From assembly GCA_030272585.1 (NCBI GenBank), contig BSYQ01000013.1, positions 124,001-188,000 on the forward strand: a stretch of DNA of 64,000 nt, read 5' to 3'. The DNA is from Bryopsis sp. KO-2023. Its lineage: Eukaryota > Chlorophyta > Ulvophyceae > Bryopsidales > Bryopsidaceae. Position 1 is the stretch's first letter; every line of letters begins with the position of its first letter. The notes under the pieces are model-generated. The model did no database searches. It saw only the letters and a program-made list of their open reading frames with translations, and had not been told where the DNA came from. The position numbers and the translations under genes were made by a program. Of this stretch, positions 44,420 through 64,000 are shown one piece after another.

Positions 44420-45631
44420 ATGGACAACCATCAGCACATACAGTGCATTTTTTTCTCTACTATATATTTTTCTATTTATTTTTTTTCCCCTTCTCTCTGG
44501 ATGTGAATATTCGACGACAGTTCATCTCAGGTGCGAATTGTCGGACAATTTTGTTCATGGTCAAAAGCAAATCGTTCCAGATGAAACCAAGAGTGGCTCT
44601 TGTGGCGATTTGATATTGATTGATTGATTGGTTATGGTAGATTTTGCTTTGGTTGGTGTAGTATGGGGTGTTTTCCTCGATTTTTTAAATATATATATAT
44701 ATATATATATATTTTCTTGTTATGCTCGATCTCAAACCTTGTCTGTTCTCATTACGCATTCCAACTCATTGATCATTAGTTGTAAAGCTCTGCCATCATG
44801 TTAGTAGACAAGGTCTGAAAATGCTGAAACGCCGCTATTTTGCATCTATTTCTTGTACGTTGACGTAAATGGATAAAATATTAAAGCAGACAAAATATCT
44901 GCAAATGCTTCTCCACCTTACCGTGCTCCAGATTTGACCCATATTTCATCTAGTAGATGCATGTATGGATATATATGAAATCAATATGCAACAACTGAAG
45001 TCGTTCGCAGCGTGCAACAACAAAAAGTGTTCAAACGAGAGGGAAGGAAAGTCCTGGTGTTTATGGAAAAAACTGGCTCGAATTACCCACCCCAACACAA
45101 CCACACAGACACTCCAAGAAATCATTCATTCAACCTTTAAAAAACTGTCCCATATGTTCGAAAAATCAAATATGCCTTTGTCCGAAAGAGATTACCCCCT
45201 ATACAAAATCCTCATTCATTTCCCTGTAACTCTCTTTTCCCCGTGCAGGACTTAAACAAAAAACTGCACAAAATACCAAAGAAAAACGGGCCGGGTGGGC
45301 GGGAAAAGCAAAAAGGTGGCGAGAACATAAGGACAACGCCTTTTAAAGTGTGGTGAAAAAAGAGAGTCGAGAATAGATGAGCGAAGTAAATGAGATGAAT
45401 TGGGACGCGAGGGTGTTTGCGGCTGAATAGCCGAGTTGTGGTGACAGGAGAAACTTGTGGTGAATGTGTGTTGTGGAATTGTGGCTGGAAATTCGGGAAG
45501 GGAGAAGGGAACGATATATAGAGGAACTGTTGTTGTTGTAAGGATGCCTTATTTGCTTTGAGTTAACGGAGCGACTTGTTTGCGAACGTTTCGTGTCAGT
45601 GTTCCAACACAGTTTCAGTAAACTTTATTCT
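44420..45631. other. Intergenic stretch before the Gag-like element
   Basis: Holds a (TA)n microsatellite at 44689-44712 and, near 45510, a TATATA box about 120 bp before the Gag-like region. The last 300 bases are GC-richer and may be the 3' part of an LTR whose left end I cannot find. Confidence 0.4.
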
Positions 45632-45632
45632 A

Positions 45633-45644
45633 CATGGTTTCGGA
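45633..45644 (+). other. Primer-binding-site-like sequence of a second LTR element
   Basis: TGGTTTCGGAGC follows directly after a TTCTACA end, as an LTR ending in CA followed by a tRNA primer site would look. The same core, GGTTTCGGAGC, lies right after the 5' LTR of the intact Ty3 element at 54070. The plant initiator-Met site TGGTATCAGAGC is similar. The matching upstream LTR start was not found. Confidence 0.45.
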
Positions 45645-47007
45645 GCGCAACCCCCTGGGGTTTTTACTCCTGTTATATGGACTTCTCTGGCTCACTATGA
45701 CGAGCCCTTTCGCACCGCATATTCTGGTCGAAAGAACGACACAATTACGTCGCAAGGAGCGGCGAAAAATATGGAGCACGTCACTTGCTCCTTGTCCGGT
45801 AACACTTGTCGAGTTTTTGCGCTGGGTTTCGAGGGCGTTGCTGTTAACTCTTCTACAGATAGGAGGTGTCGAACAGCACCCTGGACCTTCGTCTGGGGAA
45901 CGGCGCTACTCAGCCTGGACGCAAGAACTGGACCAATGGCTGTGGGCAGTGGTGACTGCGGCCAACACTTCGTTTGGTTCGCGACTCAAGGCGTTGCTCA
46001 AGTATTTCGATTTGGACACGTCTGGTGGTCAGGTTATCGCCAGAATCGCTGCTGAAATCGCAGAGAAGGACGCAACTGAGTTGGTAAACGAATTTCACGG
46101 AGGGACGGTTCCTGGGGGAGGATTTACGACGACACACCGATGGGCCTGCTTACGAAAACGCTTGGAGGAGACTTTGCCGCATCCAACAACACTGGATGTT
46201 GAGCGGATACTGACTAATATGAAGAAGGGACCCCACGAATCTCTGCGAGGTTTTGTTAAAAGATTCGTTTTGAGAGCACAGTCATATCCTACCTCTCAGT
46301 TGGATGTGCAACGTGCTGCGCACATATTATATCGAAAGCTGCCCTCATCCCTTCAACAAGGTTTAGCAGTTACTCCTCTGACTAATTGCTCTCTCGATAA
46401 ATTGGAGGAAACGGTTGTGACTTACGTCAATTGGAATACAGTGTCGACTTCTCCAGGCAAACTCCCGGCGCCTGATTACATGGATCTGGATCAGTTACAG
46501 TTGGGTGCGCATGATTTGGCGACAGAAGAAGGATTAGGAATGGAACAGCACGCGGAGGGATTAAAATATCAACGAGGGAATTCGCGACCCCCAGTCGTGG
46601 AAGGAGACAAAATACATTTTGATCGCATTGATGGTCCGATGTCTCTGGTCGCAGCATGGAAAGCGCTGGTGACGACAGGCCGCTATTACCGACAGCTTTC
46701 TCAGGAACATCTGCAGCGTTTGGGGAATAAAGACATGCATCGTCACATGCGTGACATGGGGATTCAGCAAGTGCGTTTTCGTGATCACACTGTGGTGCCA
46801 GACGATTACGCTGACGAACACTCGGTCCAAGGCTCCGATGATGCAGACCAAGTGGGACGTGTGACCGAGATACACGATGACGACGCTGATGCGTTGTTTC
46901 CTATGACCAGAGATAGGACTTGGGCCAAATTTTTGGTCCGACTCCGGTCCGGTCCGGTTACGGTCGGGTTACGGTCACCGTACTACGGCCGTAACTCCGT
47001 ACCGTAA
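45634..47007 (+). CDS. Retrotransposon Gag-like ORF with a 2A-like motif, 3' end replaced
   Basis: Open frame of 457 codons starting at an ATG that overlaps a primer-binding-site-like sequence. The N-terminus is hydrophobic (GFLLLLYGLLWLTM) and Arg-rich, followed by LLTLLQIGGVEQHPGP around residue 85, which resembles 2A ribosome-skipping peptides (consensus ending ExNPGP) but has His for Asn. The middle reads like a retroelement capsid domain: LRGFVKRFVLRAQSYP, AAHILYRKLPSSLQQGLAV and LDKLEETVVTYV. From about 46925 the sequence changes to TACGG-rich repeat and the last 25 codons are not Gag. No zinc knuckle, protease or RT follows on this strand, so the element is broken. Confidence 0.6.
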   Translation: MVSERNPLGFLLLLYGLLWLTMTSPFAPHILVERTTQLRRKERRKIWSTSLAPCPVTLVEFLRWVSRALLLTLLQIGGVEQHPGPSSGERRYSAWTQELDQWLWAVVTAANTSFGSRLKALLKYFDLDTSGGQVIARIAAEIAEKDATELVNEFHGGTVPGGGFTTTHRWACLRKRLEETLPHPTTLDVERILTNMKKGPHESLRGFVKRFVLRAQSYPTSQLDVQRAAHILYRKLPSSLQQGLAVTPLTNCSLDKLEETVVTYVNWNTVSTSPGKLPAPDYMDLDQLQLGAHDLATEEGLGMEQHAEGLKYQRGNSRPPVVEGDKIHFDRIDGPMSLVAAWKALVTTGRYYRQLSQEHLQRLGNKDMHRHMRDMGIQQVRFRDHTVVPDDYADEHSVQGSDDADQVGRVTEIHDDDADALFPMTRDRTWAKFLVRLRSGPVTVGLRSPYYGRNSVP

Positions 47008-47270
47008 CCGGAGTAATATGTTGTTTTTACGGTACGGAACAGGTACGGTATAACTACGGTAGGCCCTAAATCATCGTGAAGTAGCGTGGTTCAGTGCTAA
47101 AGCGTTAGGCTGCAGTCAGTAGGGTCGCGGGTTCGAATCCCCCTGGGTTCCTTTGGAATCGCGGGACCCTGCGGGGGTCACTTTCTACGGTTTACGGTTG
47201 TTACGGCCGTTACGGTCGTTACGGTCCGGTACGGAGCGGTACGGAGTGGTTACGGCCGTAAAAGTACGAT
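46925..47270. repeat. TACGG-rich repeat segment interrupting the Gag-like ORF
   Basis: Two blocks (46935-47062 and 47188-47262) are made largely of TACGG, GTACGG, CCGTAC and ACGGCCGTAA in both orientations, producing many short palindromes. A tRNA-like sequence lies between them. The abrupt switch from Gag-like coding at about 46925 suggests a discrete insertion. No target duplication was recognised. Confidence 0.65.
47082..47155 (+). repeat. tRNA-like sequence, probably a SINE head or tRNA pseudogene
   Basis: Contains a perfect Pol III B box, GGTTCGAATCC (47130-47140), and a D-arm-like GTGGTTCAGTGCTAAAGC about 45 bp upstream in place of the A box. The T stem has one mismatch, the anticodon stem does not pair and the acceptor arms are not complementary, so a working tRNA is unlikely. 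Confidence 0.6.
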
Positions 47271-47874
47271 TTTCTGACGAAAATTGTACTCCGGTTGATA
47301 GGGGCCTTCCCCCAGAGGGGGAAGGGTAAAGAGGGGCCCTCCTCCAAGTCGAGGAGGGTAGAACGTGGGAACACAACACTTGAGCAAACCCAGCCCCAAA
47401 GGTTACACAATGTCAAAAATACAACCCCTTTTATACCGTCCACAACACACTAACCCCTTACTCTACAGTGACACACCCACTCACCGATGGGACATCTAGA
47501 CACTAACCTCGTCACCTCGTATCAACTACTCCCCCCCCCCCCCCGAGTGGTGTCCTCAGCACTCAAGAAAGTTAATCGCGAAAGAAAAACCCGAAAGAAA
47601 TAAAGAATAAGTACTTTGATTGGCCGCTAAAAAGAGAAACAGGGCCATCCACTGAACAAAACACGAAGAAAAATAGAAAAATAGAAAACAAACTTCACAA
47701 TCATGCAAACAAGATGATTTTCAAACGGCATAACAGATCCCATACTCTGTGAAATCCAAAAACCTTGTGTCTCTTGCTTGGACGGAGGCCCGCATCTTCG
47801 TCTGCTTGCTTCATCAGGGCATTTGGTAATAGCCCGCTCAAGCCTCTCCTAACTCGTGGTTCTATGGTGCGGAT
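47271..47874. other. Spacer between the TACGG repeat and the TCCGC domain
   Basis: About 600 bp with imperfect inverted repeats around 47300-47345 (CTTCCCCC and GGGGGAAG; CCTCCTC and GAGGAGG) and a run of about 15 C at 47528-47543. No gene seen. Confidence 0.4.
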
Positions 47875-49104
47875 GTGGATTCCGCCCACGAGTACCGCAA
47901 AGGAGAAGGTTAAACATGGCATCAGCATTGCTTGCACTGTCTTCTTGCTCGTGATTCAGCACACGAACATGAAGAAATGCCCGCTATGTTTTATCCGTTC
48001 AAGACTCCAAGTCCGCGCAAGCTTAGATTATAACTTCCGCTCGCTATCTCGCTTCGCAGTTTCACTTAGGCGGAAACCATAAGCTTCGCTCCTGTCAGAC
48101 ACTCTCCTGTAGTCCGCTGCTGTTGTTATCCGCTGCGGCTTTTCATCCATTGCAGTGTTGGTCAATTCCAATTCCGCTGCAATTCCTTGGTCAGATTTCC
48201 ACTTCCGTTTCCTTCATTTACAACTGATTTTTTTCCTTCCTTCCACGGTACATCTTTGTTCTTCGCTCGGTAAAACTCTTGGTCGGATATCACTTTGGCA
48301 CAATACTCCATTCGTTACGTTTATCCGCTAGTATCTAAGCGGTCATCAGCATAGAGATTTGTCCGAGGCCAAATCCTTCCGGATACCCCCGGGATCTCAC
48401 TAAGCTGGATGATGACTAGAAACCCTACATAGCGATGATTGCCAGTACACCGATGAGAAGTCCGGCTGATCTCTCAGCTTCTTCTCTCTTCAACGTCCCC
48501 ACGAATATCCCTTGAGTTTGTCCGCCGCAACACCTTAGAACAATAACCGCTCGAGCATATCCATAACGTGTATGGCCACTGCTATAGAGATTTGTCCGAG
48601 GCCTACATTTTCCTCAGGATCTCACCACATCGTAATGCGCTGGTTGGCTACTAGAGTCCCTACATAGCAGCGAGAGCCAGTATATGCAGCAGAGCGTACA
48701 GCCAATCCCTGACCTCTTCGTCCTTTCCGCTCCAGTGTTATTGTCTTCAGTGGTCCGCTCCAATGTTTTCCGAGTTTGGTCTTCAAATAATGTCCGCTCT
48801 TTTTGTCGGCGGTTTGAATTAATCCGCCCTGGTGGTCCAATTTAATCCGCCCTGGCGATTCTTTGTTGTCTTCGGCCAATCCTCTGATGCTTTGGTAAAA
48901 CTCCCATAAGTCTCCATTACATCCTTAGCTTCAGAACATCCATAATCCGCTCGTGACTGAGTCAATCGTTGCATAGCTACCTTCACGCCTCCAAGTCGGT
49001 TGTTGATCAGAACTTCCGCTTAGTGTTGTTCGCTAGGTCGCTTCAACGTTCGCTTTGACGCCCTTTCATTCGTTCCTAATTGTACGTGCGACCGTGATCC
49101 TCAA

Positions 49105-49256
49105 ATTCCGCTTTGGCTGATATTTTCCGCCTTGGCTGATATTTTCCGCCTTGGCTGATATTTTCCGCCTTGGCTGATATTTTCCGCCTTGGCTGATATT
49201 TTCCGCCTTGGCTGATATTTTCCGCCTTGGCTGATTTTTTTTTCCGCTTTGGCTCT
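49105..49256 (+). repeat. 19-bp minisatellite inside the TCCGC domain
   Basis: About eight units of TTCCGCCTTGGCTGATATT, nearly identical, with one TCCGC per unit. The first and last copies have TCCGCTTTGG, the inner ones TCCGCCTTGG, pointing to recent local expansion. Confidence 0.92.
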
Positions 49257-49316
49257 TTGAGATCATCAATTCCGCCTTCATATTCCGCTCACTGGAATTG
49301 TGTCGCTTCCTCAGGC

Positions 49317-49408
49317 ACAATATCCGCTTCTGCAGGCACAATTTCCGCTTCTACAGGCACAATTTCCGCTTCTGCATACAATATCCGCCTCTGCAAGCAC
49401 AATATCCG
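49317..49408 (+). repeat. About 21-bp minisatellite inside the TCCGC domain
   Basis: Four to five degenerate units of the type TTCCGCTTCTGCAGGCACAA, again one TCCGC per unit, starting some 60 bp after the 19-bp minisatellite. Units alternate ATCCGC and TTCCGC and one is shortened. Confidence 0.85.
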
Positions 49409-51901
49409 CCTTAAGTACTGGATTTTGTCCGCCCAAATGCCTCTTGTCTTCGTATCCGCTAGCAATTTGATTCCGCCAATATTAACCCGCCAGTCACATT
49501 CCAACAGGCTTAATCCGCTGGTCACAATCCGCCAGTCAAATACCCTTCAAGTTCTCTTCAGAACTTCGCTTCTTCCGCCGTAGTCGAAGTTGCTTTTCTC
49601 CTGACAAGTGCATTATCCGCTTCAGTTGCTGTTTCCGCCAACTGATGTACAATTTATCCGCCCGAACGAATTCAGTCACTCAGCTGTATGTGTCTTCCGT
49701 CTCCACGGGTCATAGTTCAGGATTTATTTCGGTTTCTTTCTTTGCTCGGCTTCTGTGGTAATCCGCCCTTCGGTGAGTTCCACGTCCGCTCGAGGTTCCT
49801 TCTTTGGAGAAGAGTAATTTTTGAATGTCCGCACATTCCTTCTTTTGTTTTCCATTGCATGAGCCGCCACCTCCGTCGTCTTTGGATCCTTCTCACGGCA
49901 TCGCTTTGTATGTAAACTTCCCAAAGTTTCACGGTTGCGTCTATAGGTAGTAAATAACCAACTGGGTATCTCCATTTACTCCATCCCTATAGAATCGCAA
50001 TGTGTGCTCATTTTTCGAGTCCGCTATCTCTTCGATACTGTCTAGATCCAAACACGAGTCGATTCTTTTCACCGCAGATAGTCCGCTCTCATCAATGCTC
50101 GGTTAGTCCCCAAGTTCCGCCACTTCAAACTTGTTGACTTCCACGCGAAATATACTCCATATACCTTCCGCCACAGAGATTACCTTTTAACCCCCGCCTT
50201 CCAAAGAACCTTGGAAATAGTCCGCCAGCAACAAGCCAATTTTGTCCGCACTATCCATTTAGATACCACTAAATAGAAAGTTCCGCAAGAAAGAGTTAAA
50301 GGAATGTCAGTCCGTCGACTTCCGCTCCTCAGACAAATAACTCGGGTACCACTTGGCAGTGTTCACCTTCCCCGATAGTTTTTGTCTCTCTTTTACCTTG
50401 CACGTCCAAAGTTAAATCGCCTTTGGATAATCCCCTTGGTCCTCCTTCTGCGCGCTTGTGGCTTGGCAAATCCGCTCTTGATCCTATTTTCAGCAGAGTT
50501 TAGTTTGCTGGAAGTCAATGCACGCCTTCCCGAGAAGAAAGTATCCGGGTAACCCCCGTCGGGTTGCTCCTTGTTCGAACAGCAGTTCCGCCTGAGGGGA
50601 ACTGTGCATCCCTGCTCGCCCCTTGACAAGCGACTTCCCGACGTAACTAATCCGCTTAGCGGGTTAGCACATCTTGATTTTGGCTCCGGCTTGAGCCTCA
50701 TCAAGTGTCGGAAGTCCTCCTCCTTTTCCTTCACGCTTGACTTGCCTCTGGAGGAAGACCTTCGTCTTCTCTTTAGTACCCTGAACGATAATCTCCAGCT
50801 CAACCGACTAGCGGGCCAGTGTTCGTACCACGGCTGTCCAGAACACTGGTTGAGGAGCTTGCCCCCGTTTTCCTGCTGCAAGACATCCCCGTCAGAGTTC
50901 CCGCTTTGTCGCCCAAACAGTCCCCTCTCAACTGTTGGTATTTCGCCCGAAATCTTGAGCTCTTCATATCCTCTTCTGTCCGCTGGTTTCTGCACAATAT
51001 GTGGCACTTTCGCCCTTGGTCTTGTATTGAACGAAAGCCTGTTAATCCGCATTCCAAATCAGCATAGTCGTCCCTTCTTGTAGTTCCACGCAAGTTCACC
51101 TTCAAAATCCGGCTCTAGCGGTCGTATGTAACCCGCTCTGGCTGTCTGATTTCATCCGCCCTTGGAATTTGTTTTGAAGTCCGCCCTTGAGCCTTTCATA
51201 GTCCGCCTGATGAAGCTTTAATCCGCCCGAAGGCTAAACTTTTAGTCCGCCCTCCAGGTGTTTAATCCGCTTGAGGGCTTAGTCCTCTTTCGTCCTCTTT
51301 AGTCTGCTCTCCAGGTCCGCTTCTCAGGTCCGCCTTCCTCAAGGTTGCGGTCTTGGACTTCCTACTTCAAATTATCGTGTTCCTTCTTGTCCAAGTTGAA
51401 CTTTGCTTTGCTGATATAAGGAATCCTTCGGAAGTTTAATGTCGAGTAAAGGCACACACCTTAACACAGGCGTTCAAAACAACCAGGAATAGACCGTTCT
51501 CCCTATGGACAAGGGTGCCGACGGATTACCCGGTTCTGCACATTTCACTGAATGGGCTGTCAATGCACAATACTCGAATTAAATTCTTCATCCACCCATC
51601 TTTGCAGTCCGCTGACAGAGCTTGAAGCATCTTCTTTTTGTCGAACTTATTAACATCTTCAACAATCCGCCACACTCAGATGACTCTAAGGAGTTCTGGT
51701 GTGCGTTCCAACGCTTCGTTCTTAGCTCCAAGGTACTTGGTTTCCCTCTTAGTCCGCCTTTTGAAGAGGTTCACCACTTCTCTCTCGACTGGTATATTTC
51801 TCCACTTCAACAAATCTGCCCGCTCACTCGCCTTTAAGTGTAGCATCCAAGGAAACTCTGTTTCCCGCCCTGACCACCTGTCAGTGGATGCTCCGCGGTC
51901 G

Positions 51902-52186
51902 CTAGTTTGGACCTCTAGCGCGATTTGTTTGTTTGTCAACCTTCAACCAGATTGCTTCGCCTGGTTCAAGCTCTCCTAGCTTGGGTCTCTCAGTATACAC
52001 CATAACAGTCTTGCCAGACTGATTGAAACTACCGCACCTCAATAGTCTCCCAAGCCTTTTTGTCCACGTGGTGCTCATTGCTTGGTATGGCGTTTTAGGC
52101 TGCTCTGGTTGCTCCACAAAGTTAGGCCTCGGCGTGGATTGCGCCATCCCTGGTCTTTGGGATTTGTCCGGCCTTCTGGCATCCAT
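51902..52186 (-). pseudogene. Degraded retroelement pol-like fragment (integrase C-terminus type)
   Basis: The minus-strand frame contains YTERPKLGELEPGEAIWLKV, like the LxxGDxVWLKV segment after the integrase core of Ty3-type elements, then runs into stops. The upstream part is Pro/Gln-rich without family signal. TCCGC is almost absent across this stretch. It suggests that an old element on the minus strand was part of the domain's source material. Short similarity, moderate to low confidence. Confidence 0.35.
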
Positions 52187-53471
52187 CCATCGTGCACACC
52201 TGGATTTCCGCCTCTTTGTTGATTATGCTCCACGCATAACCGCCGCTTCCACGCTCAATCTTTATCTGCCTCCTCTCCAGCCAATCCGCGTTCAGCTATG
52301 CTTTTCGCCATTCCAGGAAGTCCCCATCCCCTGTTTCCGCTTGACAAGTAGCCAGCCAAATCTCTTTTAAAATATCCGCTCAGGAAATCCGCCCCAACTC
52401 TCTTTGAGGTGGGCGTTATCAGACCCGCTTCCTTGCGATTGTCCGATTGATTCGCTGCTTCCTTTGTCCGCGTTTTGGGTTTTTCTGGTAATGGTCTCTT
52501 ATTTCTCAAGCATTTCTTATCTGCCCAGGAAACTATATATCACACAAAGTGTAGTGGCACTTAAATTCCGCCACTTGCCCTCCATTGATCAGGCACTAGC
52601 CGCCTGTCTTGTAGTCTAATTCATCCTTCCAGGCTTGTTACCAAGACGTAGTATTTCCGCTCTTGGTGACCACTATTCGCTGGAATCCGCTCTTGAGCAA
52701 TGCTCAGTCAAGATTTATCCGCTTTAAGCTTCAAATAAGAGCTGTATTCCGCTTCTTTGATCGTGGTTCTTCCACCCTCTCAATGTTGGACAACTTCTTC
52801 AGTATACGGAATCAAAGCACTCCTTGTCCCGACCACAAAGCTTCAAAACTTCCATTTACTCGCTTCTCGGTGTCTAGGATAGTTTGGAACCTTATAGTCC
52901 GCTTTGGAGTCAGCTTTGGAGTCCATTCTCCCCATCATCATTGCTGGATCCATCCATTCCATGCCTGCTTCAGTATTGTCCAGTTTAGGTCGAATCTGCT
53001 GGCGCCATAGGCTGCTCAAGCTAGTAATCCGCCTATACACTTTAGTGTTCCGCCATCTGAAGCAATATCCGCTCATGTCGTGGATATCTGTCGTTAGCTT
53101 CTTTCCAATTCCAATTCCAGTCAATCTTTCGCTTGCTGGTCCTTCAAGCTTTGGATTAAGCTCCTGGAAATCTCTATTTAGTGGCGCCCTTCTTAGGTCG
53201 GCCTACTTGTTCAAAATTTCCGCTTTAATCCCCAACTGACAGTAGTATTCCGCCTCCAGCAACTCTTGAAGTCTTGGTGATGATGCAATTCCGCTCCTTC
53301 ATCCAAATGTGTCTTCTGTGGTAGGACTCATCTCCCTGGCACTAAATAATCCGCTTCTCTGACAAGTTTCCTCCACTCCGACATGCTCTTATGCATCTTT
53401 TTCCGCATGCTTTGTCATTTGCAGGACCTTCCATAATTTTGTCCGCTTGTCAGCAGTAGAATCCATTCTTC

Positions 53472-53477
53472 AGCGCT
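53472..53477. repeat. Target-site duplication, left copy (AGCGCT)
   Basis: AGCGCT directly before the 5' LTR matches AGCGCT at 62190-62195 directly after the 3' LTR. The site is itself a 6-bp palindrome. Confidence 0.85.
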
Positions 53478-54073
53478 TGTAACCCCAAACCACGTCGCCT
53501 CGACCAATTTTGTCACCTCCAGGGCTAGAGTGATATCAGGGGAGGGAATGCTGCTTGAGGCAGTCCCAGACGGATTACGTAGGGTTAGCAGTCACCCCGG
53601 GGCAGTTCTGCCATAGCAGTTCCGCCACAGTTTAGAGGTAGCAATTTGGCTACAGCTGTGACTAGGTTGGACAGTCCTAGGAAGTGGTGCTGTATGAATA
53701 GACTAGGGATACTTTTGAAGGATCAGATGGGTTTGATAGCTTGGGTTGTCTACTCGGGGATTGGGATCATGGAGGATCAATGGGACAGGGATGAGTCAGT
53801 CTAGAGCCTATTTAAGTGGCTGATCTTAGGGTATTGGAGGGACTTCTGACTTTTGCTTCTTCTGTTGTATTCTTTGGGTTCGAGGTCTTTGTAAGATCTT
53901 TGGAAAGAGTGTGGTCTCGTGTTTACCCATTTCTTGTGAGAGGGTGCCCAAGTGCTTCGTTTAAAGGGGCTGTCCCCACTTCTTCCGTTCCATTTCTGCA
54001 AAGAACGACTCTGCAACCGTTACTCCCGCTGCAGGGGTGACCCCAACGGTCAGGACGACGTAATTTGTTGGTT
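53478..54073 (+). repeat. 5' LTR
   Basis: Starts TGTAACCCC and matches the 3' LTR at every position seen up to GTTGGTT. It lacks the final ACA present in the 3' LTR; the sequence passes straight into TCGGAGCCC. A TATTTAAG box at about 53810 could be the promoter. Confidence 0.92.
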
Positions 54074-54081
54074 TCGGAGCC
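54070..54081 (+). other. Primer-binding site, apparently truncated
   Basis: GGTTTCGGAGCC follows the LTR. The second element at 45633 has CA then TGGTTTCGGAGC. The expected junction TTGGTTACA/TGGTTTCGG appears collapsed to TTGGTTTCGG by loss of 8 bp between two TGGTT copies. Confidence 0.5.
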
Positions 54082-54547
54082 CAGGCGCGCACACTTTTTA
54101 GCTGTGCTGCAGCAGACGTGCACTACGGCTCTGGCAGTCGTTATAAGTGGGCAGTCTGGACGAGCAAGACCTGAGAGTGAGAAAAGAAGCGGAGTAAGCT
54201 CTTGCAAGAGTGAAGAGAAGGACCCACAGGGGTGGATACGTTTCAAAAGGGTACAAGGTCGAGCTTGGGTCGCTCACAAGGGTGAAGAGAAGGCGAAAAA
54301 GCTTTGTGGGTTTCGGGATCTTGTGGGATCTTAACCTAAGGTTAGGTCAGAACTGCTGTTGGGTCGCTTTTGTCTTGTTTGGGCTGCAGCAAGGTCGAGA
54401 ACAAATACAAGAAAGAGTGACGAACTGCATAAGGTGGAAAAAGAAGCAAGGGCAGTACTTATCCGAGGTTTGGAGGAGAACAGAGGGTAAAAGAGAAGGA
54501 TCACGACCAGAAGGGAGACTTGCCACTCAGATCTGTGGCGGCGCTGA

Positions 54548-57500
54548 AGGAAAAAGAAGATCTTGACGGAAAAAGTGAACGAGGAAGAAGAACCAAACGA
54601 GGAAGAAGGCCTTGGTGGTGCAGAAGGAGTGAACGTTGAGGTTTCTGAGGCACAAGGAAGTGTTGGTGCTTTTTCTGAGGCTGGTCTTGTTGACGACGAA
54701 GGGGTGTTGAAGGAAGACTTTCTTGGCGGCTGGGACAACGAGGAAGTGAACGAGGTTGACGAGAAAGAGGTTGTGATGGTCGAGAGTGTTCCTGAAGAAC
54801 GAGAAGCAAGACAAGAAGACAGAGCTGCTGGAGACGAGGTTACGAGGGCAGAGGTAGACGACGAAGTGGTTGCTGTCGTTAAAGAAGAAGAAGAGCAAGC
54901 AAGTGTTGACCCCACTGGAAGGGAGGTACAAGAAGGAAACCTCGTTGGCGTTACTGACCAAGGAGAAGCCGAGGTTGTCCAAGAGGAGGAAGAAGTGCTT
55001 GCGGAAGAAGTAAAAGAAGAAGACGAAGCAAGACGAGTGACCAAAGAAGAGGAGGAAGCCTTTGTTGAGCCAGAAGTTGTGGTTAAGGAAGAAGTCAAAC
55101 AAGAAGAGGAAGAAGAGAGCAGTGTTGCTGCAGGGAACGGAGGAAATGGAGGCGCTACCAACGAGCCCTCGAGTTCCAGTTCCGACGAAGACAAACCTGA
55201 AGGGGAAAGAGACAAGAGGGAGACATCCTCTAGTTTCGAGGAAGAGCCTGTGCCCCCAGTACATCCACCACTGAACCCATTTGCCTTTGCTGCCAGTCTC
55301 CCCCAGATTCCTCCAATTGTGCCACCTGGTCCAGTTGTTCCACCCGTTCCACCAAGACCTCCTGTTCCACCACCAGTTTGTCCACCGACTCCAGGCAGTG
55401 GCGGCGCCATGATACATCCAGCAGAAGGACTTCCTAATCGGTTGACTAACAGTCATTTACCCGCATTTACGGGTGCAGAGGCAGAAGATGTGGCCACCTG
55501 GTTACGTTCCTATGGGATCCTCGCTGAAGGCTCTGGCTGGAACGTACCCCCAGCAGTGCAGCCACACGAAGACGAGAGGATAGAGAGACTGGTCCGCTAT
55601 ACAACCAGGGAGGCTCGGTCATGGGTTGACAATTGGATATCCAGACATCCAGCCCTTGTGGAAGGAGTGCCAAACCCATTGAGGACGTGGCAGAAGTTGC
55701 AAACGGACATGCTGGCCTGGTTTGGAGTTGCCCCAGCAACACCAGTAGCCCATACCTTGGAGCAAAGCCGGAAGGGTGATGAAACAGTGGACGAGTATAC
55801 ATCCTTGCCATCCCAAGGGCAACAACAAGTGGAAGCGAACAGAGTACCAGGCAATGCAGCCGTGGCAGATGGGTCCTTACTTCGATTGAACAAGAATGGT
55901 GCTCAGGGGGAGTTGACACCCATACTTCATGCACCCACGGAGGATACTTTGGAGGGAGTCAGTGCCAGAGCCAGACAAGTCGAGAAGAGACAAGGGGACC
56001 CAAGTCCCACCCAGAGAGAAGTGACGGTCCCAGCAACCGAACTGATGGGAGAACTGCAAGAGCATGTCGCATTGGAGCCTGTTTTGGCAGAAGTGAACGT
56101 TATGGATCGGAGAGTAAATGGGCAAATTGACAGCCTAAGGAAGGAAATGCGTGATCACAAAATTGTGACGGACTCAAGACTTCGAGGAGTGGAGCAGCAA
56201 GTGAGAATATCTGGGCGGCAGTATAGCGAACTCAGGAGGATGATCTCTGCCTTGACGGAAAGGGTAGCAGATATGCGACAATCGGAAGAACCCGAGCTGG
56301 CAGGGGTGAGCCATGGCATTACTGGAGACGCTGGAGTGGATCGAATACCTACCAATGGGGAAAGAGGCCGGGGAAACCACAGAGGAAGTGAATGGAGGAG
56401 AAGGAGTGGACGGATAAACATGAGCGAAGTCACGTGTTGGCATTGCTTACGCCTTGGACATTACAGAAGAAATTGTCCCAACCGGGTGCAGAGCTTCCAA
56501 GCAGAACTTGACGATGAGTTTATTATGGATTTCGAGCAGACCGACCCAGTGACAGCAGCCATGGAGGAACCAGAGGAAGTTCTGGCATCAATCATGTACT
56601 CTGCTATGGATGTCGATAACGGAGCAATGGACAGTGTCGAAGGAAGCAATGGAGGGACTCCGATGGATACCAGTCCAATACCCTCAGATCCGCAACCAAC
56701 CACTGCAGAAGATGTTGAAATGGAGGAACCGAAAGAAGAGCCAGACCCTGAAACAAAGAAAGAGCCAAAAGAGATTCCAAAGCAACTGCCTGAACTAGAA
56801 GATGTGCCGAAACCAGAAGATGTGCCGAAGCCAGAAGATGTGCCACAAGGATCCAAACCAGTTGTGATGCCGCTAGTGATGCATAGACCGATGCAAGTAC
56901 CATCGCCGAGAAATACCATGGCAAAGAAAAAGAAGATGGTCAAGAAATCAACAATGGAGCCAAAGAAGAAGCGCATGTTTACTAAGGCGGAGGCCAAGAA
57001 GTTTGTGGAAGGACTGACGGCGGAAGTTTCCATGGCCAAACTCTGTCAACATCATCCGGAGCTGATTGATGCTTGGCTGAAAGCATTGAGGGTGCCCAAG
57101 GCAAAAGTCCCGGCAGTTACCACCATGGCAGGAGTGGACAGGACAAGCACATTTGCAGTCACAACAGCCACAGCCAAAGTGATGGAAACTAAAGTGCCAG
57201 GAGCAATCATTGACACCGGAGCGAGTGCCTGTGTGATATCCAAAAAACTCCTAACACAAACGGGGTTAGCACACCTTATGGAGGAACCAAGAGGGCGTTA
57301 CCGCGACTGCAATGGACAGACTCGGCAGGCAGTAGGGTACATCCCCGCCCTACCCATCGGCCTTGGACAATGCAAGCAAAGGGTACCGTGCCATGTGGTG
57401 GAGAACAGCCACTTCTCCTTGATCATTGGGACTCCGTGGCTAGCGAAAACGGGGGCGGAAATCGACTACGGGCTCAAAAAGCTCACTCCATACATGGCAG

Positions 57501-58138
57501 GACAGCGCATGGATGGCGTGCCGATCGAGTTCATCCACTCTGTAACGCCTGCAACCGCTGCAGTCGTCTCTGTCTACCAGACCCTCCGCCACATCGAAGA
57601 GCCCAGTCCTGCACCAGCCCAACCACCCTCTTCTACCGGGGAACTTTTGCAGCCGAACTCAAGGACAATTCATGATGGCCTGAACCAGCCCACCGCCGCC
57701 AGTCGACATCCACCGACCCTCCGGCTTACATACTACCAAGCAAGGGTGCTGCAAGAGTGCTACACCATGCGTCGGGAGAACGGGATGAGTGAGGCAGCAG
57801 CCTCACACCTCCACCAGCAAGAGATGGAGTTACTGGATGCAAGAAGAGGGCACCATTTGAAAATACAAAAAGAGAACGAAGGGAGTTGGGAGGAAACACT
57901 GCAAAGGGAAGGAAAACAGGGGAGAAGGAATGGTGTAACAGAGGAATACATGCGGAGGCGGGAGGCACTGAAACAACAAGAAAAGGAGGAGCTCAAAAAG
58001 CTTTTGGATTACTTCCGGGAGAGTGCACAAGCATGGAGACCGAAAGGAGTGCCTGCAGCAGGAGTGCCAGCAGCAACGGCCGCAACCGGAGGGAAAGGAG
58101 GGAGTGAGGTGATAAGCTATACCACTTCGGATTTTTGA
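54548..58138 (+). CDS. Gag-protease ORF of the Ty3-type element
   Basis: The frame is open from 54548 to a TGA at 58136-58138; the first ATG is at 54776 (about 1120 aa). The N-terminal quarter is extremely acidic (Glu-rich) and then Pro-rich, which is unusual for Gag. A capsid-like region follows (PAFTGAEAEDVATWLRSYG, then AWFGVAPATP), then a helical segment, a zinc knuckle CWHCLRLGHYRRNC (CX2CX4HX4C, nt about 56435), a Lys/Pro/Glu linker with PEDVPKPEDVP repeats and an aspartic protease with IIDTGASACVIS (nt about 57206-57241) and a LIIGTPWLAK flap-side motif. The frame ends at GATTTTTGA, where a -1 slip would enter ORF2. Long antisense frames of 359 and 309 codons over the acidic region are composition shadows. 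Confidence 0.9.
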   Translation, partial: RKKKILTEKVNEEEEPNEEEGLGGAEGVNVEVSEAQGSVGAFSEAGLVDDEGVLKEDFLGGWDNEEVNEVDEKEVVMVESVPEEREARQEDRAAGDEVTRAEVDDEVVAVVKEEEEQASVDPTGREVQEGNLVGVTDQGEAEVVQEEEEVLAEEVKEEDEARRVTKEEEEAFVEPEVVVKEEVKQEEEEESSVAAGNGGNGGATNEPSSSSSDEDKPEGERDKRETSSSFEEEPVPPVHPPLNPFAFAASLPQIPPIVPPGPVVPPVPPRPPVPPPVCPPTPGSGGAMIHPAEGLPNRLTNSHLPAFTGAEAEDVATWLRSYGILAEGSGWNVPPAVQPHEDERIERLVRYTTREARSWVDNWISRHPALVEGVPNPLRTWQKLQTDMLAWFGVAPATPVAHTLEQSRKGDETVDEYTSLPSQGQQQVEANRVPGNAAVADGSLLRLNKNGAQGELTPILHAPTEDTLEGVSARARQVEKRQGDPSPTQREVTVPATELMGELQEHVALEPVLAEVNVMDRRVNGQIDSLRKEMRDHKIVTDSRLRGVEQQVRISGRQYSELRRMISALTERVADMRQSEEPELAGVSHGITGDAGVDRIPTNGERGRGNHRGSEWRRRSGRINMSEVTCWHCLRLGHYRRNCPNRVQSFQAELDDEFIMDFEQTDPVTAAMEEPEEVLASIMYSAMDVDNGAMDSVEGSNGGTPMDTSPIPSDPQPTTAEDVEMEEPKEEPDPETKKEPKEIPKQLPELEDVPKPEDVPKPEDVPQGSKPVVMPLVMHRPMQVPSPRNTMAKKKKMVKKSTMEPKKKRMFTKAEAKKFVEGLTAEVSMAKLCQHHPELIDAWLKALRVPKAKVPAVTTMAGVDRTSTFAVTTATAKVMETKVPGAIIDTGASACVISKKLLTQTGLAHLMEEPRGRYRDCNGQTRQAVGYIPALPIGLGQCKQRVPCHVVENSHFSLIIGTPWLAKTGAEIDYGLKKLTPYMAGQRMDGVPIEFIHSVTPATAAVVSVYQTLRHIEEPSPAPAQPPSSTGELLQPNSRTIHDGLNQPTAASRHPPTLRLTYYQARVLQECYTMRRENGMSEAAASHLHQQEMELLDARRGHHLKIQKENEGSWEETLQREGKQGRRNGVTEEYMRRREALKQQEKEELKKLLDYFRESAQAWRPKGVPAAGVPAATAATGGKGGSEVISYTTSDF

Positions 58139-60150
58139 GTGGGCCGGCCACCGACGTCCTCCTTCGGCGACACCTGAAGGGGTGGCGGGAGTGGGTCGGT
58201 CCAGAAAAACGAAATAAAAGGAAAAGGAAAAGGAGGAGACGTGGCAAACGTGGGGGACGGAAAGAGCAATGGCGTCGATCAGGGAGGAGGATCAAGGAGC
58301 AGGAAGAGAGAATGCAACGCCAAACACAAGAGGTAGAAAGGGCCAGAAGTCTGTGGCCAGACTCATGGGCCATGCAGTGTTTGAACCATAGCAAAACAGT
58401 GGAGGCCGAAATTCTGATGAGGGAGGAAATGGGGGAAGAAAAAGAAAAAAAAGGAATGGAAAATTCAGGGGAAGGGAAAGCCAAAGAAACAGAAAAAGGA
58501 GGAGAAAAGAAAGAAAGAGGAGAAGGAAAAGAAAAGTTTGGGTTGAAGGAAATGGGACAGGCAGCAGTTCAGCTGCAGGAAAACCAAATTTGGGCAGGGG
58601 TGGTTCCCCTTGGGACTTCTGATGTAGAAAATAGAACGTTTGCCACAGAAAAGGAAAGAAAGGAGGAAAAGGTGTCACTTAGAGAAAAATTGGAAGAACT
58701 GAAAATTAGTCCCCATCTAACCCCCCACCAAAGAAAGGAACTGCTGGATCTTCTGCAGCAGTACCCCGATGCCTGTGCTTGGTCCTCGGATCAAGTGGGC
58801 CAAACCAACGTCCTATACCATGAGATCCCAACCGGTGATCACCCTCCTATCAGGCAGAACCCCTACCGCTTCAGCTTCGCGGAGAACCAAGTGGTGAAGT
58901 CAGAAGTGGCGAAGATGCTCTTGGATGGAGTGGTCCGGAAGTCGAAATCCCCGTGGGCCTCACCGATTGTTCTAGTGCCGAAGCCGGATGGAGCCGTGCG
59001 ATTTTGTGTGGACTACCGCAAGCTAAACAAGATCACGACCCGGGATAGCTTCCCTCTTCCACGGATAGAGGATGCCATCAACCAGTTTTCGGAGGCGAAG
59101 TTCTTCTCGGCCCTGGATCTGCGATCGGGATACTGGCAGGTTCGCATGAGTCCTGCTGCCGCAGAAAAGACGGCCTTCATCACGCAGGAGGGACTATATG
59201 AATTCGTGGTGATGCCCTTTGGGCTCAGTAACGCCCCAGCGACCTTCCAGAGGATGATGAACGAGGTGCTGGGACCCATGCTGTGGAAGGGAGTCATTGT
59301 GTACCTGGATGATATCGTCATCTATGCAGATACGTGGGAGAAACATCAGGAGCTTTTGGCAGAAGTGCTGCAGCGGTTGAAGGAAGCCAACTTACGGATC
59401 AGCCCAAGCAAATCGGATTTTGGGTTTGATGAGCTGCTATACTTGGGCCATGTTGTGGGCAAAGGGGAGATAAAAATGAATCCAAAGAAAGTGGCGACGG
59501 TGGAAATGCAGGTGCCACCGGTGGATGTGTCTACTTTGCGGTCCTTCCTTGGCCTAACTTCTTACTACAGGAGATTTGTGCGCGACTACGCGAAGATCGC
59601 TGCACCCCTGACAGAGTTGCTGAAGAAGAATGTGCCGTTCGTGTGGGAGGAACGCCATGATTGGGCCTTTGAAAAGTTAAAGAGGAGTATCACAGACCAA
59701 CCTGTCCTAACCCCACCTCAGCCACATCTGCCCTACATCCTACAGACAGACTGGAGCAGTAAGGCTGTTGGAGCGGTGTTATGCCAGAAGGATGAACAAG
59801 GACTGGAGCATGTGGTAGCTTATGCCAGCAAAAGTCTCAATCCTGCTGAGAGGAATTATTCTGCAGTGGAAGGGGAGTGCCTAGCAGTGGTGTGGGCTTG
59901 CACCTTATTTCGGCCATACATCTACGGAACGGAATTTGTGCTGCAGACTGATCAAAGAGCCTTACAATGGTTGATGACGGGTACCAAACTGACGGGGAAA
60001 CTGATGAGGTGGGCACTCCGCCTACAAGAGTTTGATTTTACGATTGAGTTCCGCGCTGGGAAGAGTAACGCAAATGCGGATGCACTGACAAGGCTTCCAG
60101 TTCCGCTGGACCATCCAATAGTCAGTGGTTCCACAGCGCTTCGTCCATGA
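58108..60150 (+). CDS. Reverse transcriptase-RNase H ORF of the Ty3-type element
   Basis: Open in the -1 frame relative to ORF1 from 58108 and with no ATG near the start, so it is probably expressed by -1 frameshifting on the T run at 58132-58136. A basic/acidic charged linker comes first, then the RT: PYRFSFAENQVVKSEVAKML, RFCVDYRKLN, FFSALDLRSGYWQV, PFGLSNAPATFQ and the catalytic YLDD box (nt about 59302). RNase H follows with LQTDWSSKAVGAVL, EGECLAVVWA and QTDQRALQWL carrying the acidic residues, and the usual NADALTRLP end. The stop comes at 60150, before any integrase. RT and RNase H look intact. Confidence 0.93.
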   Translation, partial: GDKLYHFGFLSGPATDVLLRRHLKGWREWVGPEKRNKRKRKRRRRGKRGGRKEQWRRSGRRIKEQEERMQRQTQEVERARSLWPDSWAMQCLNHSKTVEAEILMREEMGEEKEKKGMENSGEGKAKETEKGGEKKERGEGKEKFGLKEMGQAAVQLQENQIWAGVVPLGTSDVENRTFATEKERKEEKVSLREKLEELKISPHLTPHQRKELLDLLQQYPDACAWSSDQVGQTNVLYHEIPTGDHPPIRQNPYRFSFAENQVVKSEVAKMLLDGVVRKSKSPWASPIVLVPKPDGAVRFCVDYRKLNKITTRDSFPLPRIEDAINQFSEAKFFSALDLRSGYWQVRMSPAAAEKTAFITQEGLYEFVVMPFGLSNAPATFQRMMNEVLGPMLWKGVIVYLDDIVIYADTWEKHQELLAEVLQRLKEANLRISPSKSDFGFDELLYLGHVVGKGEIKMNPKKVATVEMQVPPVDVSTLRSFLGLTSYYRRFVRDYAKIAAPLTELLKKNVPFVWEERHDWAFEKLKRSITDQPVLTPPQPHLPYILQTDWSSKAVGAVLCQKDEQGLEHVVAYASKSLNPAERNYSAVEGECLAVVWACTLFRPYIYGTEFVLQTDQRALQWLMTGTKLTGKLMRWALRLQEFDFTIEFRAGKSNANADALTRLPVPLDHPIVSGSTALRP

Positions 60151-60440
60151 TTTACTATGGAACCCCAGATCAGAGCTGACAAGGTGCAACCATTGTTGTC
60201 CCAATGGAAGTACTCAACAGTGGTAGGGGACACTTGAATTTTGTGAGGTTTTTGCATATTTCTTGCCTACCATTGTTGTTGCAAAAGATCAAGGGGGAAA
60301 AAGTGGATCAATGGATGGATAAGGATCAAATGAAATATTTGGAAAGAAAGGATTTGCCTGCTGGGAGACAAGCTGAGGCGAAAGTGCACAGAAGAAGTCG
60401 ACGATATTGAAGGGTAGCAGGAGATGCTCACCCACTCAAG

Positions 60441-60660
60441 TACTTGAGCAGAGAAAGAGAATGGCGACAGGTGCCAAATGAGGAACAACGATAGTCTGTG
60501 GTTCGAGATATCCACAGACAGAATGCGCACATCGGCGGGAGAGGATTAAGCCAGAAGAGTGCAGCAGCTGCACAGCAGCAAGAGTTATATATCAAAAGAG
60601 GAAGAGCAAGTGTGGCAGACGTGCCATAACTGCAGAGAGAGTTAAAAAGCGCCTAAGGAA
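60441..60660 (+). pseudogene. Integrase zinc-finger remnant, frameshifted
   Basis: One frame reads VVRDIHRQNAHIGG (from about 60498), the His-His half of the HHCC integrase finger, with a stop just before it. A second frame reads VWQTCHNC (60610-60633), the Cys-Cys half. At least one frameshift separates them. The DDE catalytic core and C-terminal domain that should follow are missing; the next 900 bp is non-coding. Confidence 0.75.
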
Positions 60661-60849
60661 CTATATCCGCTACGGCAGCATGAGAGAGAGAAAGCGCCTA
60701 AGGGACTTCATCCACTACGGCAGCATATACCGTTGAGAGCTTGGGAGAAAACAAAACAGCGGAAAAAGGGGAAAGAAATGAAGTGGCAGAACTTCTACAG
60801 AAGCCGGGCGTTCAACTAAGGAAAGGACGACTATACCATTCGGAGACCG

Positions 60850-61560
60850 ATTGATTAGTGGTACGGATGGATCGCGAAATACAATATGGTATTTTCTGGT
60901 TTTGTTTTGTTTTGTATTGTTTGTTTTGTTTGGTATTGCTGTATTTCTGCAGCAGCAGTGGGTGGGTTTTTATTTTGTTTTTGGTTCTATTTTGTTCTTG
61001 GGTACTATTTCTGCAGGAATAGTATTCAGTCAGTCGATAGGGAAAAGGATTTTTCTTTTGATACTTTTTGAGCTCAATAGAGAACTGGGGAATGAAAGGG
61101 GGATACACAAGGGACAAACAGGGACAAACTGGTCACTTTGACCTATAGGGGGTGAAAGAATAGCTGATGGCTATGAGGAAAAAAAAGAGAAAGGGGGAAC
61201 TGATTGAAGTGCAGCACCACTGGTTTACATTCGAGTGCTCTTTGAACAGTCCCGCTGGGTTTAAAGAACAGCTGATGGCTGTGATTAAGAAGAAAGGGGG
61301 GGACCTGTTTGAGGAACAACATTGTTAGTTCACATTTTGATATCCTTGGATAGTTTGTTGTGGAAAAATAGTAACAGTGGGCACTTGTTTTGTGTTTCTG
61401 AGCACTACGTCTACAGACATAGTAGCCAGTCAGGCAGTTAAGAGAAAGATTTTCTTGTTGCTACTTTTTGGAAAAGTTCTGGGAACAACTAGCTAACAAC
61501 TAAAAGACCAGGGACAGAAGAAGTTCAGTGGGGGAGGTTGAGTTTAACTTTTGGGGACAA
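60850..61560 (+). repeat. Non-coding 3' region of the element with an internal duplication
   Basis: Two diverged copies about 390 bp apart share the order: an ACTATTTCTGCAG/CTACGTCTACAG-like segment, AGTCAG, GGGAAAAGGATTTTT or AGAGAAAGATTTTC, then CTACTTTTTGG. Another pair, AATAGCTGATGGCTATGA at 61160 and AACAGCTGATGGCTGTGA at 61270, is also related. The duplications stand where integrase should be. Confidence 0.55.
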
Positions 61561-61566
61561 AAGTCA

Positions 61567-61580
61567 AGGGAGGAGGGGAG
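61567..61580 (+). other. Polypurine tract
   Basis: AGGGAGGAGGGGAG sits 10 bp before the 3' LTR, the expected plus-strand primer. Between tract and LTR the sequence GGTTACAGCTGTAACC forms a perfect 16-bp palindrome across the LTR border. Confidence 0.8.
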
Positions 61581-61590
61581 TGGTTACAGC

Positions 61591-62189
61591 TGTAACCCCA
61601 AACCACGTCGCCTCGACCAATTTTGTCACCTCCAGGGCTAGAGTGATATCAGGGGAGGGAATGCTGCTTGAGGCAGTCCCAGACGGATTACGTAGGGTTA
61701 GCAGTCACCCCGGGGCAGTTCTGCCATAGCAGTTCCGCCACAGTTTAGAGGTAGCAATTTGGCTACAGCTGTGACTAGGTTGGACAGTCCTAGGAAGTGG
61801 TGCTGTATGAATAGACTAGGGATACTTTTGAAGGATCAGATGGGTTTGATAGCTTGGGTTGTCTACTCGGGGATTGGGATCATGGAGGATCAATGGGACA
61901 GGGATGAGTCAGTCTAGAGCCTATTTAAGTGGCTGATCTTAGGGTATTGGAGGGACTTCTGACTTTTGCTTCTTCTGTTGTATTCTTTGGGTTCGAGGTC
62001 TTTGTAAGATCTTTGGAAAGAGTGTGGTCTCGTGTTTACCCATTTCTTGTGAGAGGGTGCCCAAGTGCTTCGTTTAAAGGGGCTGTCCCCACTTCTTCCG
62101 TTCCATTTCTGCAAAGAACGACTCTGCAACCGTTACTCCCGCTGCAGGGGTGACCCCAACGGTCAGGACGACGTAATTTGTTGGTTACA
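61591..62189 (+). repeat. 3' LTR
   Basis: 599 bp, TGTAACC...GGTTACA, with complete inverted termini. Offset to the 5' LTR is constant (8113 bp), so there are no indels between them. Confidence 0.93.
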
Positions 62190-62195
62190 AGCGCT
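62190..62195. repeat. Target-site duplication, right copy (AGCGCT)
   Basis: Matches 53472-53477. Sequence beyond it returns to the TCCGC pattern. Confidence 0.85.
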
Positions 62196-64000
62196 CAACT
62201 CTCCCAGACACATAGCTTTTTCCGCTGATCCTTGAGTTTGCGCTTTTCCTTTAAATTATTTTGTCAGTAGCACTCCTTATCCGCTTGGTAGCTTTTTCCG
62301 CTCTTCAGGTTCGGTTAACTCAATGCCTTACACTGGCTAATACGAGTATAATCCGCCCTTACTTCCAATCCACTTGATAATCCGCTTGTTCTCTTGCTTC
62401 TGACAAAAATCCGCTGACTCTTTGCTCGCGCTCCATTTGACAGAACACGCTTGTCGGTGATCAATTTGAATGCTCCATATGATATATTGTCTGTCACTTA
62501 GTCCGCTTGCACCTTTGCTGCATTGGAATTTCCGCTCAAGACACACCCCCTCATCGCCTTTGCATTCTGCCTCAGCAGTCCGCGCTGACAGTCCGCCTTT
62601 GCCTTAGCTTTTAGTCCGCTTAGTGCAATAGTCTGACGGCTGTAATTTGGTCGATGAATACTCCTTAGACTTTTGGGTGTTGTTCTTGGCGCTAGACTTC
62701 CATGTATGGCTAGTATTGTGAGCCATATCCGCTCAATGGTTTGTGGTAGTGTCCGCCCTGACCAGACGTATGATTCCGCTTAGTCTTTCAGCCAATAGTC
62801 CTTGGACCTGATCATCCAGGTTGGCTCTTTTATTTCCGCTCTGGCTCAGGTTCTTGACGGTCTAATTTAATCCGCCTGACGGTATAATTTAGTCCGCCTT
62901 GACGACCTCATTTAGTCCGCCTCTGCTATTCCGCTGTTGAAAAGAGAATGAATTTTTCCGCTCGTGATCCTCGGTTGGTTCCATGGAAACTCGGTTAGTT
63001 CCAAAGAATACCACCATACACTTCCACGGCAATAACCTCTAATTCTTCTTCTTCACTCAGCCCGGAATATCACAATCCGCTACCACATCCATTAGACCTC
63101 AAAGTTTACCCACAAGATATCCGCTCAGAGCTTCAACAATGCTTCACTTGCCCGTTCATAACATTAAGTCACAAACATCCAATGTGGCACTGCTATTGCG
63201 TGCTCCTTAGTCAGATTCAAGCTCTCGAGAATGCTCGATAGCTCGCGGCAAGCTACATTTAATCCGCTCGTCTTATATCCGCTTGTGTGAGGTCTTGGCC
63301 TATTGAAAGTCCATTCCAAACGAACTATACTCTCCAACAGCTCCTTCTGCAACAAATCATTCTGCATACTTAATAGCTTAGCAGATGATTCCTTCTCTTC
63401 CGCCCTGCGTACTTAGCAGCTTTGCAGGCGGTTTAATCTCCCTCTTGGGTGCGTTGAACTCCACTATCGCTTGAACTCGGTTTGTAGGTAACTGGCAGGC
63501 CGCTCTTCCGCTCTCTATTAGCCTGGCGACTTCTTTTCTCTCTTTGTCTTCTTGTCGCTAGTTGTGCTTACATTCTTCCGCTATGGTCCAACTCTTGGCA
63601 GTATAAAGTCTTAAGATCTTCGTCTTCTTCTCTTCGCACTGAAAATCCGCTCTTTTGCGGTTGCTAATCCGCTGGGTGATCAGCCCAGGCGGTTTGTGCG
63701 TTGATACAGACTCGTTTCTGCTCCTGCCGTGTAACACAACCTCCAGCTTCTGTTTCATGACCGCCTCCAACTCTTGATGTATTAAAATCCGCCTCCAACG
63801 CGATCGTGAAACTACCGTAGTTCTAGCCTCGATAGTCCGCTGATATTCCGTGTTGTGTGTCCGCTGGTGCTCCTCCAAGCTCAACCGCTTCAGCTCACAA
63901 CAACACCGCCTATTCTTCCTTCTCGTTGGAATATCATTGTCCGCCCAGCAGAGTGTAAGGGCAGCGGGTCACTGGGCCACTTTGCCCGCCTTCTGCCTCT
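62196..64000 (+). repeat. Strand-polarised TCCGC pentamer domain, right part
   Basis: Continuation of the left part after the LTR insertion, with TCCGC again frequent on the plus strand (for example near 62219, 62279, 62352, 62381, 62410 and 62501) and no reading frame of note. It runs off the right edge, so the whole domain exceeds 7.4 kb without the LTR element. Confidence 0.8.

Follow-up and report, generated by a model that had tools for sequence, protein, structure and literature searches.

Why is one strand of a stretch of DNA from the green alga Bryopsis sp. KO-2023 saturated with a single pentamer, TCCGC? The stretch lies in a window of 64,000 bases (124001-188000 of contig C13; the assembly comprises 91 Mb in 28 contigs) and is almost certainly a young, non-autonomous long terminal repeat (LTR) retrotransposon of 9.1 kb, similar to the large retrotransposon derivatives (LARDs). 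In the predicted RNA of this LARD-like element, hereafter LARD, the pentamer reads GCGGA and would probably constitute an array of protein-binding sites. Packaging of the RNA by a Gag protein is the use of the array that we favour, tentatively.

A one-stranded pentamer array in a LARD-like element

The preliminary description of this DNA reported saturation with TCCGC on one strand, and the counts bear this out. In 47875-54000 and 61900-64000 taken together, the plus strand carries 122 TCCGC and one GCGGA, where the frequency in window 1-47000 would predict 4.4; 16 TCCGC and no GCGGA fall within 49261-49680, exactly the number originally given. The pentamer is neither equally frequent on both strands nor equally common elsewhere: the plus strand of the whole LARD (9,135 bases) has 134 TCCGC and 3 GCGGA, and the 47,295 bases before it have 22 and 23 respectively. 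The biased stretches are thus real but do not form the single 7.4-kb domain first described, since the element runs on to 65142 and 53478-62189 is a nested retrotransposon without strand bias (9 TCCGC, 9 GCGGA).

LARD spans 47296 to 65142, ending 1.1 kb past the window end, and measures 9,135 bp without its insert. Several features by which LARDs are recognised are present. The two LTRs (229 bp each, 47296-47524 and 64914-65142) are 100% identical and the target duplication CCGGT flanks the element on both sides. A candidate primer-binding site (PBS) directly follows the LTR, and a G14 polypurine tract (PPT) precedes the LTR at the opposite end. The interior is long and has no recognisable protein genes. 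Three parts of the element were each scored at 40 places in the genome: a 2.4-kb piece has about forty close copies, the longer matches being 92-97% (40 scored of 47 candidates), the main matches of a second piece are 92-100% (40 of 45), and for a third 40 of 47 candidates were scored. The preliminary description had considered an old retroelement as the setting of the motif. The pentamer does lie in a retroelement, in the interior of a non-autonomous one, but because the LTRs are identical the element is young. Its features are as follows, in window numbering.

47296..47524, minus strand (sense = minus): 3′ LTR of the LARD-like element, 229 bp, TGATACG...CCTATCA in sense, TATAAAAG on the minus strand; copy at 64914-65142 (L009:1914-2142), CCGGT on both sides
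47525..47555, minus strand: PPT, sense GGACACCACTCGGGGGGGGGGGGGGAGTAGT, abutting the 3′ LTR; read directly, with a close match before the 3′ LTR of the gag-pol element C12
47881..53477, minus strand: motif-array domain, part 1, 88 GCGGA in sense (TCCGC on the plus strand)
50393..51058, minus strand: longest sense open frame, 221 codons, judged non-functional (extra stops in other copies, no Pfam match)
53478..62189, plus strand: nested Ty3/gypsy retrotransposon, outside the array; LTRs 53478-54073 and 61591-62186; aspartic protease, reverse transcriptase (RT) and RNase H
62190..64000 and on to about 64362 beyond the window, minus strand: motif-array domain, part 2, 46 sites in all
between about 64362 and the PBS, beyond the window, minus strand: motif-free leader, 551 nt on the sense strand
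about 64893-64910, beyond the window, minus strand: putative PBS, the sequence directly after the 5′ LTR
64914-65142, beyond the window, minus strand: 5′ LTR of the LARD-like element, identical to the 3′ LTR

On its minus strand the LTR holds TATAAAAG, then TTTTGGTTTCGGAGCTTGGGCG. The word TTGGTTTCGGA directly follows the LTR in LARD and in C12, a Ty3/gypsy element considered below, and overlaps the LTR in the nested gypsy element. With GGCG close behind, it has 239 occurrences in the genome, those in LARD copies among them, and none in reverse; we take this combination as a putative PBS. From the positions of the PBS, PPT and TATA box, the sense strand of LARD is therefore the minus strand and the RNA motif is GCGGA, which occurs 134 times in the predicted RNA, or about 17 per kb. 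A function at the DNA level, as transcription factor or chromatin sites or through a replication-strand effect, would be compatible with the same counts and with the CpG in the motif core. Most double-strand DNA-binding proteins, however, do not need an orientation bias such as 134 to 3, and a replication-strand effect is at odds with a polarity that goes with the element, copies of which are found in either orientation on the chromosomes. We regard a DNA-level function as very improbable. Action on RNA is favoured since the motif keeps one orientation with respect to the sense strand of the element itself.

The interior of LARD is treated here as non-coding. An origin of the pentamer as codons could appeal to the sense frame of 221 codons, but among 19 other copies 10 interrupt this frame with additional stops (insertions ignored), and a Pfam search with two LARD open reading frames (ORFs), which left shorter frames aside, yielded nothing above the cut-off. 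TCCGC positions modulo 3 also lack any codon phase (33/29/27 in the first biased stretch, 9/11/13 in the second). Coding bias was thus rejected as the source of the motif, in agreement with the preliminary description. The same description entertained many small insertions, and these are contradicted by the copies. Sites were compared in 19 copies over about 5.2 kb, with the main tandem arrays left out and with longer indels, which break the alignments, uncounted; the motif survives intact in 1,059 of 1,180 site-copy cases, is altered by substitution in 120 and by a short gap in only one. We give practically no credence to codons or inserted units as the explanation of the pentamer.

Context, spacing and origin of the sites

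The 134 sense GCGGA of LARD compare with 12.1 expected from composition and 13.4 (4.2 + 9.2) from dinucleotide shuffles. The motif extends beyond its core to RGCGGAHWW, with a purine before it in 91% of sites, a base other than G after it in 98% and then A/T in 84% and 81%. In 7,773 bases of LARD there are 103 sense copies of RGCGGAHW and a single antisense one. The context [A/T]TCCGC[C/T] originally proposed for the plus strand is accurate on one side, C or T following in 80/89 sites of the first stretch and 32/33 of the second. On the other side G is also common and C hardly ever occurs (T36 A29 G23 C1, n = 89; T10 A13 G10, n = 33). The core itself is exact. Its 15 one-base variants occur 0 to 21 times individually and sum to 156 against 167 expected; GCGTA is missing (8.5 expected), and GCAGA (21 against 13.3), GTGGA (19 against 12.7) and GCTGA (17 against 8.5) are mildly raised. 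With the variants together at background, a strand-specific mutational product, also suggested at first, has little to support it.

The spacing of the sites is not random. Intervals shorter than 13 nt number 2 of 132 (17.4 expected; lowest of 2,000 simulations 6.4) and intervals of 19-25 nt number 32 (11.3 expected; highest of 2,000 simulations 23). No GCGGA stands in the 551 nt that follow the 5′ LTR or in the ~356 nt that lead up to the 3′ LTR, the regions of the signals for reverse transcription. Most sites are non-tandem, as first stated, but a minority belong to short tandem arrays (seven units of 19 bp at 49106-49240, five of 21 bp at 49304-49409 and three of 22 bp at 62853-62922), which supply part of the excess of 19-25-nt spacings. 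A 432-bp segment of the copy L033, absent from the window copy, holds 8 TCCGC and no GCGGA; the examined spans of L031 to L034, several of them cut or partial, hold 110, 123, 129 and 123 TCCGC. Because perfect, degenerate and absent tandem structure grade into one another, the sites probably multiply by local tandem duplication, with the spacers diverging and the motif being kept.

Persisting tandem arrays and the spacing excess are also what a neutral relic would display. On this reading an old minisatellite whose unit, about 19-23 bp long, contained TCCGC has decayed, and the pentamer was left by chance or by biased duplication and has no function. Such decay should leave an excess of one-mismatch variants, yet there is none overall, and the five core bases are exact while the flanks are unrelated. 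As the motif is exact, extended, strand-fixed, spaced in a footprint-like manner and absent from the terminal signals, we infer instead that each GCGGA would be a binding site for an RNA-binding protein. An array bound by a DNA- or RNA-binding protein that is sensitive to orientation was among the possibilities first listed and appears to be the best fit. We consider it likely, on the evidence of sequence, that the array is maintained and acts at the RNA level.

Leaders, relatives and a possible role in packaging

The most likely binder would be a Gag protein, through its nucleocapsid (CCHC) part, supplied by a helper Ty3/gypsy element. Two considerations point to Gag: without genes of its own, the RNA could attain some forty copies only by way of helper particles, and the sole other dense occurrence of the motif that was found sits in a leader between PBS and gag. 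Read from the minus strand, LARD RNA would carry its 134 GCGGA (103 RGCGGAHW) across nearly the whole non-coding interior. The array could then act as a polyvalent, dispersed packaging signal that captures the gene-less RNA into helper particles, after which the RNA would be reverse-transcribed and reinserted. That the array serves packaging by Gag is a serious possibility, though we stop short of calling it probable. A fuller scenario is more doubtful: LARD may be a gene-less parasite in which the non-coding interior, 8 kb long, has turned into a polyvalent packaging array of about 130 exact Gag-recognition words, its RNA out-competing that of the helper for particles.

Packaging signals usually lie between PBS and gag. 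Leaders were surveyed over the 800 nt after the PBS in 12 elements chosen by PBS variant, plus the nested gypsy element; several are alike, so fewer than 12 families are represented. The twelfth, L046, has 8 sense GCGGA in its 800 nt. Its leader is nearly identical to that of L006, an element with a gag domain, and the 580-nt L006/L046 leader contains, between PBS and gag, six RGCGGAHW (0.14 expected), the same extended motif as in LARD and likewise in sense only. Even four, the count left after removing two pattern-selected sites, were reached in 0 of 20,000 simulations.

The element C12, situated on contig C12, is a chromodomain-bearing Ty3/gypsy retrotransposon with an uninterrupted gag-pol frame, and bears on the question of an autonomous partner. 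It has in common with LARD the PBS TTTGGTTTCGGAGC, the PPT (GACACC...CTCG..G-run) and the LTR end ...TATCA, and the 143 nt preceding the 3′ LTR are 62% similar between the two (E 3e-4, from a comparison of limited size, on T-rich sequence and with no low-complexity filter). Unlike LARD it codes for Gag-Pol, and its LTR start and body have no BLAST match to LARD. It therefore appears probable from these sequences that LARD belongs near the C12 clade. A hybrid LTR at C2:124074 was considered as a template switch and rejected, being a C12-type element inserted in a LARD LTR.

The leaders, the predicted folding of the motif and the comparison of copies supply the points that weigh against packaging. 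Sense GCGGA is absent from 11 of the 12 other leaders and was rejected as a general leader feature. The nested gypsy leader has one sense GCGGA, not in the extended form, and the C12 leader carries GGCGA in place of GCGGA (8 to 0 in one 500-nt bin). L006 was itself found through a pattern with two GCGGA, and BLAST gave no match between LARD and L006 in the 3 kb of the latter that was read. The eleven leaders without GCGGA would sit comfortably with the main rival, in which the array binds a host RNA-binding protein, for export, stabilising or hiding of an intronless non-coding RNA or for titration as a decoy. Strand, extended consensus and spacing fit this rival equally well. Speaking against it, the one other array of the extended motif of similar density that was found (host genes were not surveyed) is in a retrotransposon leader between PBS and gag. 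We consider this rival rather unlikely. As for folding, the unpaired probability of the motif (0.415 and 0.392) is close to that of permuted pentamers (0.401 and 0.409) and of base-matched ones (0.441 and 0.432), with no preference for loop or stem. A structure preference of the motif was rejected, and this near-equality gives no indication of a packaging stem-loop like that of MS2.

Among the copies, TCCGC is intact in 88.2% of site-copy cases, other CpG pentamers in 87.6% (pooled) and non-CpG pentamers in 84.9%. Per-base mismatches are 187/9,442 at motif positions and 4,011/129,664 overall. Polymorphic motif columns number 34 against 53 expected, but singletons 19 against 20; the intact-site and polymorphic-column counts took four copies twice (L031-L034 overlap L016, L012, L020 and L015). 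The shared/single effect at motif columns is not significant (odds ratio 0.6, p 0.13) and singletons are commoner in motif columns (p 0.04), in a test that defined the motif as present in any copy, which draws in polymorphic columns. With the identical copy L022 dropped, the motif changes comprise 14 losses and 5 gains among singletons and 16 losses and 4 gains among shared variants. Losses and gains that are near neutral, and motif sites no better kept than other CpG pentamers, would suit the neutral relic. Gains slightly exceed the neutral share of 0.096 in singletons (5/19, p 0.03), which speaks against it; the shared changes are not significant (4/20, p 0.12) and the gain shares of the two classes do not differ (p 0.72), so that the outcome is mixed. 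Between-copy selection tests have little power here because the present copies are young. Weighing in the comparison with CpG pentamers slightly lowered our confidence in the maintained array, in packaging by Gag and in the parasite scenario, and slightly raised that in the neutral relic, which we still judge unlikely.

Two further observations concern the leaders. Sense-only GGCGA in the leaders of L041, L044 and C12 (L054, bases 500-1000) is possibly the chromodomain element's own leader motif; this motif, and with it a general leader motif code, was picked after looking, and the code is suggestive only. The palindrome AGATCT is repeated in several leaders (L038, L041, L043, L044 and LARD) and possibly represents dimerisation signals.

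Surroundings and significance

The nested Ty3/gypsy element (8.7 kb, 53478-62189) has terminal repeats of 596 bp that are 100% identical, AGCGCT on both sides, and Pfam domains for aspartic protease, RT and RNase H. Its insertion site is empty in four of four copies, L031-L034, which align with LARD in two main blocks, 47296-53477 and 62190-65142; the intervening DNA is absent and L033 has further indels. We note that at 60150-61590 no plus-strand ORF exceeds 119 aa before the 3′ LTR, so there is no integrase-sized frame despite the identical LTRs. The 5′ LTR passes straight into the PBS at 54060-54075 (TTGGTTTCGG) and the 3′ LTR end at 62180-62189 is TTGGTTACA; TTGGTT, common to both LTR ends, overlaps the PBS.

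LARD in turn probably lies within a third retroelement, giving a three-level nest around 45060-47295 and 65143-70396 (L009). A gag-sized ORF (45622-47007, no Pfam match) is found on one side and same-strand protease and RT/RNase H ORFs on the other, where an integrase match (65143-70396 side) falls just under cut-off. Each side of LARD carries repeats of 117 bp (100%) and 231 bp (99.6%), but their order differs, and outer LTRs are not assignable. A PBS-like ATGGTTTCGGAGC is located at 45635. Upstream of the window, L010:1-3183 is a tandem array with a unit of about 193 bp, mostly 97-98% identical, and more diverged pieces of this repeat are at about 4660-5190 of L010.

LARDs have been described for barley, where their LTRs are kilobases long. 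The LTRs here are only 229 bp, and the interior differs in being dominated by one sense-strand pentamer array. In the portions of PMC7215508 drawn on here, LARDs are an established kind of element and are said to have well-conserved RNA secondary structure; the likeness to our element lies in paired LTRs, PBS, PPT, a long interior without gag, pol or env, many copies and a presumed need of a helper. Dispersed packaging signals are established for small RNA viruses and for the hepatitis B virus pregenome, according to the parts of PMC6281560 used here, and they resemble the present array, known from sequence alone, in having many copies of one short motif along one RNA strand. Those signals are largely stem-loop motifs of viral genomes (the same parts of PMC6281560), whereas in LARD no stem-loop presentation or other structural preference of the motif is predicted and the RNA is non-coding.

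A literature search on GCGGA as a retrotransposon motif gave no match, and found no described single-motif array filling a LARD. LARDs are already known; an array of one motif filling such an element appears to be new. To our knowledge it is an open question by what route LTR retrotransposons without genes are packaged, and likewise why a long "empty" interior is retained in many of them. If the array binds a host protein, it would be a very dense natural single-motif RNA decoy. If it is a packaging signal, the LARD interior would have a purpose and its recognition code, RGCGGAHWW, could be read; competition between helper and parasite would become directly testable with a short synthetic RNA.

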